The translations under genes and the position numbers were made by a program. Positions 5,900-46,998 of a stretch of DNA of 60,567 nucleotides are shown piece after piece. Location of the stretch: assembly GCA_001898035.1 (NCBI GenBank), contig MKRX01000009.1, forward strand, positions 31,290 to 91,856. The letters are read 5' to 3'. Source of the DNA: Armatimonadetes bacterium 55-13 (GTDB lineage: Bacteria > Armatimonadota > Fimbriimonadia > Fimbriimonadales > Fimbriimonadaceae). Under the pieces are notes generated by a model. The model was not told where the DNA came from. It saw only the letters and a program-made list of their open reading frames with translations, and did no database searches. The stretch's first letter is position 1. Each line of letters begins with the position of its first letter.

Positions 5900-7717
5900 C
5901 TACTTGGTCACCGATGAGAGGGTGTAGGGGAAGGAGTCGACTTCCTGGGAAGTAGGTTCAAAGTCCGTATCAATGGAGAAAGTTGCCTGCGGCGAGTGCA
6001 TCTCAACGACTTTTTCTGCACTGAGAGGTCCTCGGCGTACTCGAACGATAAATCGAAGCCGGAAAGGACTAGGTGTACCTGACTGCTTCACGGTCACTCG
6101 TGTCCGCCAATTCCGTTCGATTTTGGCCTGATCTCCACTTAACACCTGGAGACTTGGAAAATTGGCATTTGAAACCCATTGATTCCAGAACCAATCAAGT
6201 TTCTGACCAGAAGACTTCTCAAAATAGGGTCGTAGATCTGTCCAGGTTGTTTCCTTACCGAGTCTATCCTTGATCATCGCCCGTAGGGCTTCCATCATTT
6301 TGCCCTTACCAATCTCATATTCAAGCATCTTCATCACGTACGCACCGCGCCAGTAGGTGGCGCTGTTGTTTGCGTAAGCAACGTCCATATCGATCAAAGG
6401 TGTTTTGAGATTAACCGTACGCAGACCATTTTCTAGCGTGCGGTCATTGTTGTTTTGAAAGGCGACGCTATCGATGTATTGCGTCAAGCCTTCATTCCAG
6501 GTATCGCGGGTGTACGCACAAGGGACGATGCCACCGAAGTAGGTGTGTCCCATTTCATGGCTGACAAATCGCAACGTGTAGCCCTTTTGAAGGAGGGTGT
6601 GACTGTAGCTCTCAATTCCATAGTATCCAGTTGCATCGAAACACCAATAGTGATCAAAGGGAAATGGCCCGAGGTTGTCCTCGTAGAACTTCATCGCCGC
6701 AACCATTTGATCCACTTCTTTTTGTCCCCGATCCTTTTCGACCGGCTCAAGCTGATAGGATCGAAAATTCTTACCGTTCACGGTGGATTCCGCGACGAGT
6801 CTGTAACGTCCCCCAATCACCTTGGGATAACTAATGGGCAGGTCGCACTGGAAGGATTTAGTTTGCTGTCCAGGTTGCGTGTCGATAGGTCCAAGGCCGT
6901 CAGATGAAGAATCTATCTCCTTACCCTCCGCCTTCAGAACCCAATCTGCTGGTCCGGAGATCCGAACGATCGAGGGATGCGGAAGTCTTCCGATGCTGGG
7001 CACCCACCATGCCGTTACATATGCCTGCTTTTCATTGATTTTGTCTTGGGTAGACGTATTAACCACTCCGCTATAGGTGAACTCCAGCTTTGAGTTGGGC
7101 TTGGAGGTCCAAGGGATGAGTAACCCGCCGGCCCTGACCACATCTCCGGCACTGGGGCTGGGCACTCCACCGCCGGCGTCAATCACTTTGGAAGTCGCCC
7201 CGCCCATCTTCACCGCCGACAGGCTGTAGACGTCATTAAGCCTGAAGATGGGTGCGCGTGAGGTTGCCTTGCCGTCTAGTTCGACCACGGATCGGACGCT
7301 AATTTTGTGTTCACTGGGCGAAAGTTGGGCCGCAGTCGCCATCTTGGCAATACGGGTTTCGATCCCAGCCCACTCTGGCAACTCACGGCCGAGTTTGAGT
7401 CCATCATTTGTTCTCAAAAGGCCATATACGGGGTCGTGGTCTTGCTCAATTTCCTGTTGCGTATGAAAAACTGCCCAGTACGGAGCCGTGTCTTCCCATC
7501 CCGGAGGAGCGGGAATGATATCTACCTTTACCGCCCTGAGCCCTCCCTGTCGTGATGCCATTTCAAAGAGATATGCAGAATCCTCCTTGTTCTGAAACAG
7601 CTGTTCAACCTTTGAACTCACCCCGCTACTCACTACACTCCGGCTATAGGTCAGAAACTGCGCGGGGTTGACGATGACAGGCGTTTGAATCAACAATAGG
7701 GTGGCCAGAAACGTCAT
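5900..7717 (-). CDS. M1-type zinc metallopeptidase, exported
   Basis: A 605-aa protein with a hydrophobic leader (MTFLATLLLIQTPVIV) and the gluzincin motif H387-E388-M-G-H391, with the third ligand E409 in WNEGLTQY, exactly 18 residues on. YYGIESYSHTLL precedes the zinc motif in the position of the M1 exopeptidase segment, but the classical GAMEN is not intact, so the substrate preference is unclear. The C-terminal part contains a beta domain (TVKQSGTPSPFRLRF) typical of M1 relatives. It probably degrades peptides outside the cytoplasm. It is the first gene of a two-gene operon with the fucosidase. The start at 7717 has no clear Shine-Dalgarno. Confidence 0.85.
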   Translation of the reverse strand: MTFLATLLLIQTPVIVNPAQFLTYSRSVVSSGVSSKVEQLFQNKEDSAYLFEMASRQGGLRAVKVDIIPAPPGWEDTAPYWAVFHTQQEIEQDHDPVYGLLRTNDGLKLGRELPEWAGIETRIAKMATAAQLSPSEHKISVRSVVELDGKATSRAPIFRLNDVYSLSAVKMGGATSKVIDAGGGVPSPSAGDVVRAGGLLIPWTSKPNSKLEFTYSGVVNTSTQDKINEKQAYVTAWWVPSIGRLPHPSIVRISGPADWVLKAEGKEIDSSSDGLGPIDTQPGQQTKSFQCDLPISYPKVIGGRYRLVAESTVNGKNFRSYQLEPVEKDRGQKEVDQMVAAMKFYEDNLGPFPFDHYWCFDATGYYGIESYSHTLLQKGYTLRFVSHEMGHTYFGGIVPCAYTRDTWNEGLTQYIDSVAFQNNNDRTLENGLRTVNLKTPLIDMDVAYANNSATYWRGAYVMKMLEYEIGKGKMMEALRAMIKDRLGKETTWTDLRPYFEKSSGQKLDWFWNQWVSNANFPSLQVLSGDQAKIERNWRTRVTVKQSGTPSPFRLRFIVRVRRGPLSAEKVVEMHSPQATFSIDTDFEPTSQEVDSFPYTLSSVTK

Positions 7718-7798: not shown

Positions 7799-8827
7799 AT
7801 GAGCGAGCTCGATAGTCGAAAAAAGTCCATCTTGCGAGCCGTCATCATCGAGTATGTAACCGGCGCCGAACCAGTGGGAAGTGAGCTCCTGGTTCAAAAG
7901 TATTCCTTAGGCGTCAAATCTGCGACTATTCGAAATGAACTCGCCGAAATGTCCGAATTGGGCTACTTGGAACAGCCTCATACTAGCGCCGGAAGAATTC
8001 CTAGCGACCAAGGCTACCGCTTCTATGTCGACCAACTTCTCCAGACAAAGGAGCCTGATACGGTCAGTAGGGAGCGACTCGAGTCCGTGGCCGAAGAAGG
8101 CGAAGCGCTTCAAACCCAACTTCGGGAAATGACGCGAGCCCTCAGTCGACTGACTCACCTGCTAAGCGTCGCAACAACAGTTCGAGACGTCGGAATCACG
8201 GTCAAGAGCGCTTTGGTCAGTGCAATTGGTCCACAGCAGGCCCTGCTCGTCCTGATGATGAGCAACGGACACATTGAGAATCGCCTATTGGAGTGCCCTG
8301 CAGGCTTAAGCTTACAGGATGTGGGCGCAGCCAACGAGCTATTGCAAATGGCGATCGTTGGGCTATCCCTTAGAGACCTACGTCGTGCCAAGGCTCCCGC
8401 TTCCCGATTTGCCGGAGCCTCCGAAAAGTTTCACTCGGCAATCTGGACACAGATCCGGAGCATAGCTAAGGAAATGACGCGCGGACTTATGATCACCGAG
8501 GGTGAAGAGTTTATGTTCGGGCAACCTGAGTTCCAGCGAGATCTCAGTTCACTGGCCGAGTTCATTGACTATCTTCATAACTCCGACTCGTTTTACGAGG
8601 CAGTTAGCGGCCAGCCCACCGCGCAAACGGTCACTATCGGGCGCGAGAACCGTCATGAGAAGCTGCACCAGATGAGCGTGGTGCGTCAAAGTTTCTATGT
8701 GGGAGATCAAGAAGCCGGAGTGATTTCACTGGTCGGCCCGACCAGAATGGCCTACGATGCAGGAATTCCTTTGGTGAGCTTCACGGCCAAGGTGCTGAGC
8801 GAGTCGCTCACCAAATATTTCGGCTAA
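7799..8827 (+). CDS. hrcA: Heat-inducible transcription repressor HrcA
   Basis: A 342-aa protein of normal HrcA length. The N-terminal winged helix includes ILRAVIIEYVTGAEPVGSE, ATIRNELAEMSELGYLEQPH and TSAGRIPSDQGYRFYVD, which are family hallmarks. The middle and C-terminal parts match the GAF-like and insertion domains. HrcA normally represses groE and dnaK operons by binding CIRCE. Here grpE, dnaK and dnaJ are absent from the neighbourhood and I saw no CIRCE in the window, so it acts in trans. A TAGAAT hexamer at 7783-7788 precedes the start by ten bases. The stop overlaps the fcl stop by four bases on the other strand. Confidence 0.95.
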   Translation: MSELDSRKKSILRAVIIEYVTGAEPVGSELLVQKYSLGVKSATIRNELAEMSELGYLEQPHTSAGRIPSDQGYRFYVDQLLQTKEPDTVSRERLESVAEEGEALQTQLREMTRALSRLTHLLSVATTVRDVGITVKSALVSAIGPQQALLVLMMSNGHIENRLLECPAGLSLQDVGAANELLQMAIVGLSLRDLRRAKAPASRFAGASEKFHSAIWTQIRSIAKEMTRGLMITEGEEFMFGQPEFQRDLSSLAEFIDYLHNSDSFYEAVSGQPTAQTVTIGRENRHEKLHQMSVVRQSFYVGDQEAGVISLVGPTRMAYDAGIPLVSFTAKVLSESLTKYFG

Positions 8828-44768: not shown

Positions 44769-45269
44769 CTACGACTTGGACTTCGGAGTCGGTGATTGGG
44801 TGGACTTAGCAGTTGAATTTGTCTTGGTGCTCGTCGAAGTTGGTGGCATAGGAGGACAAGCAACGGCTCCCGCCACAACCATCTTCCCTGTAGCGATTGG
44901 AGGTGAGCTGATCCCAAAATCTTCCTTCAATCGCTCACCAACCTGCCCGCATCCGATGGCCGAAAGTACAAAGGACGAAGCAAGTGCGAACTGACGCACA
45001 ACCTTTCTACGGAATGCCCGAACTCCTTTAGGACAGTCTCGAGTAATCAGCGTGCCATCGGGTCGTTTATACAGCCGTACGCAGACCCTTCCTTCCGCTT
45101 GCTGAATGAAGTCGTATGCCTCGTTCGAGTTCATCTCTGAAAGGTTGTAGACGTTGAGTCGGCACTGGGAACAGTGGCGCACCTGATCATTGCCTTTCAT
45201 CTCATCCCAATTGGCCGGACATGGCTTAGCGACCGTTACTTGATTAAGCAGTTCCAGATTCCGTTTCAT
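44769..45269 (-). CDS. Cys-motif membrane protein divergent from an ECF sigma gene
   Basis: A 166-aa protein starting at the ATG at 45269 (AGGGAAG upstream); the 31-codon extension would leave eight bases to the divergent sigma gene. The N-terminal 80 residues carry a pattern I have seen in many uncharacterised proteins: CPANWDEMKGNDQVRHCSQC then LNVYNLSEM, GRVCVRLYKRPDGTLITRDCP (C17, C33, C36, C63, C79). The cysteines could bind zinc or an iron-sulfur cluster. One membrane segment (93-107) follows, then a Pro/Ser/Thr/Lys tail outside. Facing an ECF sigma gene, it may be a sensor or target of that system, which is inference. Confidence 0.72.
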   Translation of the reverse strand: MKRNLELLNQVTVAKPCPANWDEMKGNDQVRHCSQCRLNVYNLSEMNSNEAYDFIQQAEGRVCVRLYKRPDGTLITRDCPKGVRAFRRKVVRQFALASSFVLSAIGCGQVGERLKEDFGISSPPIATGKMVVAGAVACPPMPPTSTSTKTNSTAKSTQSPTPKSKS

Positions 45270-45370
45270 GGCTTCCCTTTTCTGTGTGTAACGATCGTCC
45301 AATTGTTCAATCTCTTTTGATGGAATGAACGATTTTTGTTCCGGGCAACACTCACCCTTCAACGATCACA

Positions 45371-45892
45371 ATGCTAACAACATTTGAAATGGGGAATCCT
45401 CGGGACTACCACGACATTGCCACGATCGCGCGAGAACACTATGACCTCGTGTTTCGATTCTGTGCACGAAGGGTGGGAATGGAGGCGGCGGCGGATACGG
45501 CACAGGAAACATTCTTGACTGCACAAAAGGCCCTTGCCAAGTTCAAAGGCGCTTCCTCCCTCAAAACCTGGCTATTGGGTATTGCGAACAACGAATGTCG
45601 ACGAATGTCTCGAAAGAGGAGGTGTCAGCCACCAACTATCGAACTGATCGAATCAGGCTCGGCCGAGCATCATGAAGAGACAATCATCAATCGACATGCC
45701 CTCCAAGAGGCGCTTTCTCGACTGAGTAGCGAACACCGTGAAGTCGTTCTCTTGCACGAAGTCGAGGGTCTGAGCTATGAAGAAGCTGCTCTCGTACTTG
45801 GAATTCCCGTGGGAACTGTAAAATCCAGATTGCACCATGCCTTTGCAAACCTCCGCAAATCGCTTTCTGGTCAGGTGGAGGTCACGCGATGA
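45371..45892 (+). CDS. ECF RNA polymerase sigma factor
   Basis: A 173-aa extracytoplasmic-function sigma factor. Region 2 is HYDLVFRFCARRVGMEAAAD and TAQETFLTAQKALAKFKG; region 4 is LSSEHREVVLLHEVEGLSYE and EAALVLGIPVGTVKSRLHHA, the helix-turn-helix for the -35 element. Codon 7 is an alternative start. The stop overlaps the ATG of the next gene as ATGA, the normal arrangement with an anti-sigma factor. The target promoter may include its own, in the 101-base divergent gap, but I could not identify it. Confidence 0.95.
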   Translation: MLTTFEMGNPRDYHDIATIAREHYDLVFRFCARRVGMEAAADTAQETFLTAQKALAKFKGASSLKTWLLGIANNECRRMSRKRRCQPPTIELIESGSAEHHEETIINRHALQEALSRLSSEHREVVLLHEVEGLSYEEAALVLGIPVGTVKSRLHHAFANLRKSLSGQVEVTR

Positions 45893-46998
45893 ATATAAGA
45901 GAAGATCTCAAGGCATTTGTAGATAACGAGCTACCGGAAGAAAGGCGAATCGAAGTCCTCAAAGCGATCGAGTCCGACCCGGCTCTTCAGGCTGAGGTAA
46001 TTGAGATTCGCCAGGTTTCGCGGCTGGTACGCGAGGAAGCTTGGCAACCTCTGCCGACGGGCCTCGAAAGCACACTTCAAGCTCTTTCGAAGGGTCGTCG
46101 TAAACTGCCATGGTTCGCCTCCCCTATGGTTGGCTGGGGGCTTGCCACCGTGGTGTTCATCGCCTTCTTTTTGAAGATTTCTTCCACGCCTGAGTTCTCA
46201 AAGATTGCATCGAGATTCTCTGCTTCTGGTGAATCATCGGATGCCGTCGCCTCCGCTCCTGGTGATGCGGTCGGCACGGCCTCTTCACAGCTATCAAGAG
46301 AAAAGAGCGTTTCTCCCGGTGAGAAAACACAAAAGAGTGATGTGTTCTTCGACAATCAAGTCAACACCGGACAAAAGGTATCAACGGCCAAGTCGGCACG
46401 AGTTCCAGAAAGGCCAATGAGTCCCTCGCCACAGATGCTGGGAGCCCCTTATGCCGATCAAGTTACTCATCTTGAACTGGAGGTAGAGGATGTCCCTAAA
46501 GCTCAAGTAAAGGCCCGTGAGATCGCTAACGATCTTAGAGGAAAAGTCGAATCGGATGAAGCGTACCGATTATCCGACGAAGAGACTACCGCTAACATGA
46601 GACTCCAGATTCCCTCGAATCGGGTAGTCGATGGCCTCACTCGACTAAGGGCCCTGGGCAAGAAACCAGCAATGGCGAGTCAAGGGGGTTTGGAGACGCC
46701 ATCCACGATGAAAGACGAAGGCGGGTTTAAGAAAGAAAGCCTTGCTCTGAAAACCCCATCTCAAGAAAAACTCAAACAAGGGGCGGGAGCCACTCAGCCG
46801 AAGGTTACGATTAATCTGAACTTACGGTCCGCACCGCAGATGGTAACTCACCCTTCGGCGCCTCAAGAAAGACGGGCTGACAACTCGAATGAGCCCAGAG
46901 ATCGTGAGACGGGACCGATTGTGGGGTGGCCGGTCGTTCTGGGATTGGCGGCTTTCTTGGTCGTCTGGATGGTTGTTCGGAAGAAACTAAGACGATAG
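45889..46998 (+). CDS. Putative transmembrane anti-sigma factor with DUF4349-like domain
   Basis: A 369-aa protein coupled to the sigma gene. The N-terminus MNIREDLKAFVDNELPEERR resembles anti-sigma domains but lacks the zinc-binding HxxxCxxC. TM1 is at about 76-93 (MVGWGLATVVFIAFFLKI). The outer part contains HLELEVEDVPKAQVKAREIA with DLRGKVESDEAYRL and NMRLQIPSNRVVDGLTRLRA, like DUF4349. A second helix (PIVGWPVVLGLAAFLVVWMV) and RKKLRR end the protein, so both termini are inside. It probably holds the sigma factor and releases it on an envelope signal. A perfect hairpin follows. Confidence 0.82.
   Translation: MNIREDLKAFVDNELPEERRIEVLKAIESDPALQAEVIEIRQVSRLVREEAWQPLPTGLESTLQALSKGRRKLPWFASPMVGWGLATVVFIAFFLKISSTPEFSKIASRFSASGESSDAVASAPGDAVGTASSQLSREKSVSPGEKTQKSDVFFDNQVNTGQKVSTAKSARVPERPMSPSPQMLGAPYADQVTHLELEVEDVPKAQVKAREIANDLRGKVESDEAYRLSDEETTANMRLQIPSNRVVDGLTRLRALGKKPAMASQGGLETPSTMKDEGGFKKESLALKTPSQEKLKQGAGATQPKVTINLNLRSAPQMVTHPSAPQERRADNSNEPRDRETGPIVGWPVVLGLAAFLVVWMVVRKKLRR

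Follow-up and report, generated by a model that had tools for sequence, protein, structure and literature searches.

Modules of an ECF sigma factor and a membrane anti-sigma factor, such as the RpoE-RseA-like and SigW-RsiW-like ones, are the closest described counterparts of the locus analyzed here. Unlike in these modules, the anti-sigma factor of this locus has no zinc motif and carries an outer region of the DUF4349 type. A sigma factor with regions 2 and 4 only, a co-transcribed membrane anti-sigma factor, a predicted autoregulated promoter and an AAC in the -35 element agree with ECF modules as described in the accessible parts of a review, but the -10 element is CACTCA here and differs from the CGT type named there (PMC8103513). 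According to the same parts of that review, it is an established idea to recover the targets of a sigma factor by way of the promoter through which it regulates itself (PMC8103513). In DUF4349 proteins (PF14257), an outer domain is followed by a C-terminal membrane helix, an arrangement shared by the anti-sigma factor. One DUF4349 member from Methylobacterium is listed among the Tat-dependent tail-anchor candidates tested, as stated in the accessible part of the respective study (PMC10924467). Unlike in the DUF4349 proteins, the domain here follows an anti-sigma region to which it is fused, and the copy described below is without the coiled-coil half. A search of openly licensed literature returned two papers that mention DUF4349, nothing that links DUF4349 to anti-sigma factors and nothing on ECF sigma and anti-sigma factors in Armatimonadetes.

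The window, i.e. the whole analyzed stretch of 60,567 nucleotides from Armatimonadetes bacterium 55-13, belongs to a genome of 4.5 Mb. The taxonomic family to which the counts below refer is probably that of Fimbriimonas. A preliminary description, made from the letters of the window, had proposed an ECF sigma module with a divergent cysteine-motif membrane protein, referred to as Cys protein in the following. The features of this locus are:

44769..45269, minus strand: Cys-domain membrane protein gene, 166 aa, ATG start, chosen by alignment to relatives
45024..45269, minus strand: N-terminal four-Cys domain (C17, C33, C36 and C63 invariant, C79 frequent)
44946..45002, minus strand: single hydrophobic span of the Cys protein by hydropathy, with basic residues N-terminal of the span
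44772..44945, minus strand: predicted extracytoplasmic Ser/Thr/Pro tail of the Cys protein with an apparently diverged LMGxIAxP motif
45281..45310, minus strand: predicted ECF-type promoter of the Cys gene, TTGAAC-N16-CACACAGA, 11 nt before ATG 45269, score 13.35
45325..45354, plus strand: predicted autoregulatory ECF promoter of the sigma gene, ATGAAC-N16-AACACTCA, 16 nt before the ATG, score 19.56
45371..45892, plus strand: ECF sigma factor gene, 173 aa, from the ORF list and Pfam and NCBIfam profiles
45889..46998, plus strand: membrane anti-sigma factor gene, 369 aa, no zinc motif, ATGA overlap with the sigma gene
46468..46662, plus strand: remaining DUF4349 part in the anti-sigma outer region, Pfam residues 194-258 corresponding to profile positions 8-72 of 213

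The sigma and anti-sigma genes and their promoter

The identity of the sigma protein as an ECF factor, as initially proposed, was confirmed by profile searches. Sigma-70 regions 2 (PF04542, Sigma70_r2, 4e-13) and 4 (PF08281, Sigma70_r4_2, 8e-18) were matched well above cut-off in Pfam, TIGR02937 was above cut-off in NCBIfam, and the Pfam search gave no match for region 3. The described coupling of the two genes by ATGA is present as a stop/start overlap at 45889-45892. Among the 29 other anti-sigma loci of relatives (L018-L046), a sigma gene lies beside the anti-sigma gene in 28.

The lack of a zinc motif in the anti-sigma factor was likewise borne out: HxxxCxxC is absent, the translation contains zero cysteines and zf-HC2 was matched only with E=0.14, below cut-off. 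The protein is not a member of the ZAS (zf-HC2) group. NCBIfam anti-sigma models match it, but below cut-off, and its N-terminus holds a conserved LKAF/YxDxE in the alignment with relatives. With a sigma-coupled gene, a predicted N-terminal cytoplasmic region and a membrane span, it has the general properties of a membrane anti-sigma factor, and it is a putative binding partner and inhibitor of the sigma factor. Two hydrophobic spans were recognized by eye, which makes the suggested location of both termini inside reasonable. The proposed DUF4349-like outer domain holds in part, since the match is above cut-off (33 vs 27.7 bits) but covers only profile positions 8-72 of 213. In an alignment with 13 relatives, the coiled-coil half of DUF4349 is missing from the window protein, with low-complexity sequence in its place. 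The same-genus relatives L018 and L019 keep this half, and L020 also looks shortened. The outer sensor part of the anti-sigma factor seems to vary quickly (window 46468-46900; relatives L018-L046).

The sigma genes have a common upstream site, TTGAAC-N16-GACACTCA. De novo enumeration found TGAAC-N18-CACT before 19 of 29 sigma genes, window included, compared to a maximum of 3 in ten shuffles. The distance from the full site to the nominal start is 7-28 nt in nearly all 29 sigma genes; in L022 it is further off, and the site of L031 is weak. A matrix was built from the 28 other sigma sites, leaving out the window's own and excluding the spacer. With this matrix, the sigma site of the window ranks first in the window (19.56), and all 18 further family sigma orthologues, none of which contributed to the matrix, carry the site (18/18, scores 14.4-24.6). 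The sigma promoter is therefore a predicted autoregulated one.

In the Cys direction, the site ranks 4 of 121068 window positions (13.35). The shared control region of the preliminary description was thus found to contain a pair of ECF-type sites arranged back to back, of which the one facing the sigma gene is strong and the one facing the Cys gene is weaker. Because three other window sites score 13 or more, all of them inside ORFs on either strand, the Cys site of the window alone is suggestive only. A loose form of the promoter pattern was not enriched in the window's own genome, with 11 matches compared to 13 for the reversed control. One of the three other window sites, at positions 7612-7641, is strong with a score of 18.55. 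It lies antisense within an ORF of the peptidase type, at a distance of 157 nt from the hrcA-like ORF that follows (7799-8827), and may be due to chance.

The Cys protein

The listed ORF of the Cys gene (44769-45362) begins with TTG 45362. As this ORF would span its own promoter and relatives align from about ATG 45269, the gene probably starts at this ATG, and a protein of 166 aa is likely. The five cysteines described for a conserved-looking domain are all present N-terminally; C17, C33, C36 and C63 are invariant in a 12-row alignment, but C79 is not. Altogether, C17, W21, M24, G26, R31, C33, C36, V40 and C63 are invariant in the 12 family sequences. The one helix and the Ser/Thr/Pro tail that had been described were also recovered, as a single hydrophobic span by hydropathy and as a Ser/Thr/Pro-rich tail in the translation. 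In the members obtained from the best 80 of 88 loci of the wider family, the span follows the domain in 82/82, and the domain side is the more positively charged one in 70/82. For this reason the Cys domain is probably cytoplasmic. It is a candidate zinc-ribbon-like, putatively zinc-binding domain.

Pfam and NCBIfam hold no family for the window Cys protein. For 32 Cys-family members from several phyla, these collections matched only fused parts (CarboxypepD_reg, SAF), apart from weak chance matches. AlphaFold models of the Cys domain reached moderate pLDDT values of 70 and 63. They gave no clear fold match: the best structural match of the first model, to kinases with a Z of 4.0, was taken as noise, and the second model matched no structure at Z 2 or more. 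In the profile search against solved structures, query A2 gave only weak matches, which were taken as chance (best HMG box, E 0.0045), and query A4 gave no match. A lipobox behind the helix occurs in only 6/82 members, so a lipoprotein signal is not a general trait of the family. In plasmid records, the single match was a weak one to a hypothetical Calothrix protein.

Linkage, shared promoters and the role of the Cys protein

Conservation of the neighborhood was assessed by tblastn of all three proteins, with flanks of about 1.5 kb, some of them cut by contig ends. At the 15 other Cys loci (L002-L016, some overlapping), the sigma pair was found in none (0/15), and none of the 29 other anti-sigma loci holds the Cys gene within these flanks. 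A wider Cys scan used one genome per species; an ECF profile located an ECF gene within 6 kb at 3 of the best 80 of 88 confirmed loci, each more than 4 kb off and none adjacent. The conserved three-gene unit expected from the preliminary description is rejected by these counts, which show the Cys gene apart from the sigma pair in the relatives, the very outcome that this description had named as speaking against it. The three-gene arrangement is therefore seen in the window's genome only. Six-frame clustering for recurrent neighbor genes of the wider Cys family yielded mostly mixed and antisense ORF clusters, and its outcome was left unused.

The missing linkage bears on two alternative readings. 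In the first, the Cys protein would act on one of the two switch proteins, the sigma or the anti-sigma factor, as a sensor or modulator, e.g. by feedback. The divergent genes with their back-to-back promoters would suit such a component of a three-part unit, and the Cys domain and the sigma factor are both cytoplasmic by predicted topology. However, the linkage is not conserved, and the anti-sigma protein was found in 31 of 61 related genomes and the Cys protein in 10 of 61, the window's own included in both counts. As the pair occurs in many genomes in which the Cys gene was not found, the Cys protein does not appear to be needed for the switch. Even though the co-regulation in trans presented below would also suit a feedback component, the Cys family of other phyla lies under a different upstream element, and a role of this kind is considered unlikely. 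In the second reading, the neighbors are unrelated and both their divergent arrangement and the Cys-side promoter are due to chance, which would fit the lack of conserved synteny and the only moderate Cys-side site.

Against chance stands the occurrence of the same promoter before Cys genes that are not linked to the sigma pair. The same matrix was applied to the 160 nt upstream of Cys genes with a threshold score of 13 or more, and the expectation was derived from the same loci. In a first set of 20 Cys genes, which includes the window's own (L001) as well as L008 from another family of the order, 11 reached the threshold (10 of 19 without the window's own), whereas 0.018 were expected. In a held-out set that was fetched afterwards, 10 of 18 did so compared to 0.061 expected; L217 scores the same promoter as L073, and removal of this duplicate gives 9 of 17 distinct genes. 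Four loci (L071, L129, L142, L228) were left out of scoring. In the tandem Cys pairs L005 and L226, the site stands before the first gene only. Genome G126 has both sites, with a score of 18.3 at a Cys gene and of 24.6 at the sigma gene. Across both sets, 17 of 37 distinct Cys genes have no site of 13 or more, and the Cys paralogue L002 in the window's own genome has no good site either (6.3). In four family genomes, no sigma gene was found beside the best anti-sigma match; the Cys genes of G010 and G153 are without the site and those of G172 and G035 have it, so this comparison is neutral. In the set from other phyla, 0/81 Cys genes carry the site after removal of L104 (1/82 before), which is an Armatimonadetes record with the same site as L070.

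Of 17 Cys genes from other families of the phylum, just 1 fits the family matrix. In these other families, the site before the sigma orthologues is changed to TGAACCTTT..AACTAA or a similar sequence. A matrix made from eight changed sites matched 4 of the 17 other-family Cys genes (17.8-28.2; 0.028 expected), and the remaining 13 score at most 4.8. Since the changed sites are common to the sigma genes and these four Cys genes, the sigma factor and some of its candidate Cys targets seem to have changed their promoters together. The held-out test and this co-variation are the strongest evidence for the predicted functional link, and in view of both, a mere chance arrangement is very improbable. 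Another possibility is that the promoter is read by a different ECF sigma factor with overlapping specificity, so that co-regulation with the pair would be incidental. Relatives carry many ECF genes, and 30 rpoE-type genes are given for F. ginsengisoli in the accessible part of its report (PMC4072686). Nevertheless, the site precedes this particular sigma orthologue in 18/18 further family genomes where it was found, and the changed promoter form follows the sigma orthologue in the other families, which leaves such a coincidence hardly credible.

The locus is likely an autoregulated ECF/anti-sigma switch, and the Cys protein is best read as an output of its regulon rather than as a core part, because the promoter is common to the sigma gene and unlinked Cys genes and co-varies between them. 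With a sigma-type promoter shortly upstream, the window Cys gene is a predicted regulon member, and its transcription would depend on the sigma factor. In this model, the membrane anti-sigma factor would hold the sigma factor until an envelope signal, sensed via the anti-sigma outer region by analogy with known ECF systems, frees it. From TTGAAC-N16-GACACTCA promoters, the freed sigma factor would then transcribe the operon that encodes it, together with a small regulon. The Cys gene would be served by its own divergent back-to-back promoter in the window's genome and be reached in trans in relatives. Its product would place the four-Cys domain, presumably with zinc, inside and the proline-rich tail outside of a single span. 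Of the three-part envelope or redox signaling unit in the preliminary description, the envelope setting and the common regulatory unit are retained, the latter through the sigma promoter before unlinked Cys genes; the third signaling component is given up, and a redox role is not supported. The inference from adjacency was right on co-regulation and wrong on conserved linkage.

Further candidate targets and the wider Cys family

A strict form of the promoter pattern had 60 matches in 61 genomes, compared to 27 for the reversed pattern. Among the matches examined, strict sites lie just before the sigma gene, Cys genes and ARPP-1 genes (three genomes), and also before a VIT protein and, in two genomes, before lipoproteins that resemble DUF4140 with Pfam matches below cut-off. 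Many other strict sites are not followed by a gene start, and DUF2330 and fasciclin proteins are single weaker cases. When the 13 ARPP-1 genes of the 61 family genomes were all examined independently, 9 had a site, whereas 0.09 were expected. The candidate proteins of the regulon have signal-peptide or lipoprotein N-termini by eye, which fits an envelope response. Openly licensed literature held nothing on topic for ARPP-1 with rhodanese and phosphatase, and nothing for an ECF sigma factor with a VIT domain and an anti-sigma factor. Sites of this promoter type were also noted in the window's genome (L160, L165, L166, L167), where the genes behind them encode a fasciclin protein, two lipoproteins (one DUF4140-like, one ARPP-1) and an exported protein of unknown type.

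For one sigma factor of a phylum that has been little studied, these results provide a promoter that can be tested. They also suggest a regulatory context, an ECF regulon of the envelope type, for a widespread Cys family with neither a Pfam or NCBIfam model nor a solved relative found by profile search, and for other unexplained exported proteins (ARPP-1, DUF4140-like, VIT).

Loci with members of the Cys family are titled Acidobacteria, Planctomycetota, Melainabacteria/Cyanobacteria, Elusimicrobiota, Verrucomicrobia, Myxococcales and Armatimonadetes. Their common pattern is CxxxWxxMxG...RxCxxC...VYNLS...C, followed by one helix and a Pro-rich tail with LMGxIAxP. As these wider loci were found by peptide patterns, the conservation of NVYN..S.M and CP..W..M among them is partly due to selection. 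In the tails of the members from the best 80 of 88 loci (L077-L156), MG occurs 128 times compared to 18.3 in shuffled tails and is present in 71/82 members, in a context like P-x-P-L-M-G-x-I-A-x-P. The window protein differs from this unnamed four-Cys family in its tail, which has at most a diverged form of LMGxIAxP, and Acidobacteriota-type loci have a different element upstream.

This second bipartite element, TGCAAG(A)-N13/14-CCGTTC(A), lies about 45 nt before the ATG of other-phyla Cys genes where examined. In a set of 74 such genes, which leaves out seven Armatimonadetes loci, its core is common to 21, and shuffles reach at most 4. A score of 11 or more of 14 is attained by 38 of the 74; shuffled sets contain 0.8 such genes each, and among random windows 2.5 percent reach this score. 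The element is present upstream in the Acidobacteriota-type loci L077, L090, L101, L120, L128, L138, L144, L146, L151 and others. It was not enriched genome-wide (29 vs 35 reversed matches in 10 genomes), and no convincing copy was seen before 22 ECF-like loci of two genomes. It resembles an ECF promoter with a different specificity, and some of its spread may reflect shared descent; part of the 74-gene set is closely related. Only tentatively can the four-Cys/one-helix/LMGxIAxP family be proposed as a recurrent output of ECF envelope responses across phyla, that is, as a widespread, unannotated envelope-stress effector. It would be served by the DUF4349-linked sigma factor in Armatimonadota, where the promoters appear to change together, and by the second ECF-like element in Acidobacteriota. 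In some members the Cys domain is fused to further parts, namely carboxypeptidase-regulatory-like repeats (L100, L113), a SAF/CpaB-like part (L110) and, by eye, a TonB-like end (L080).
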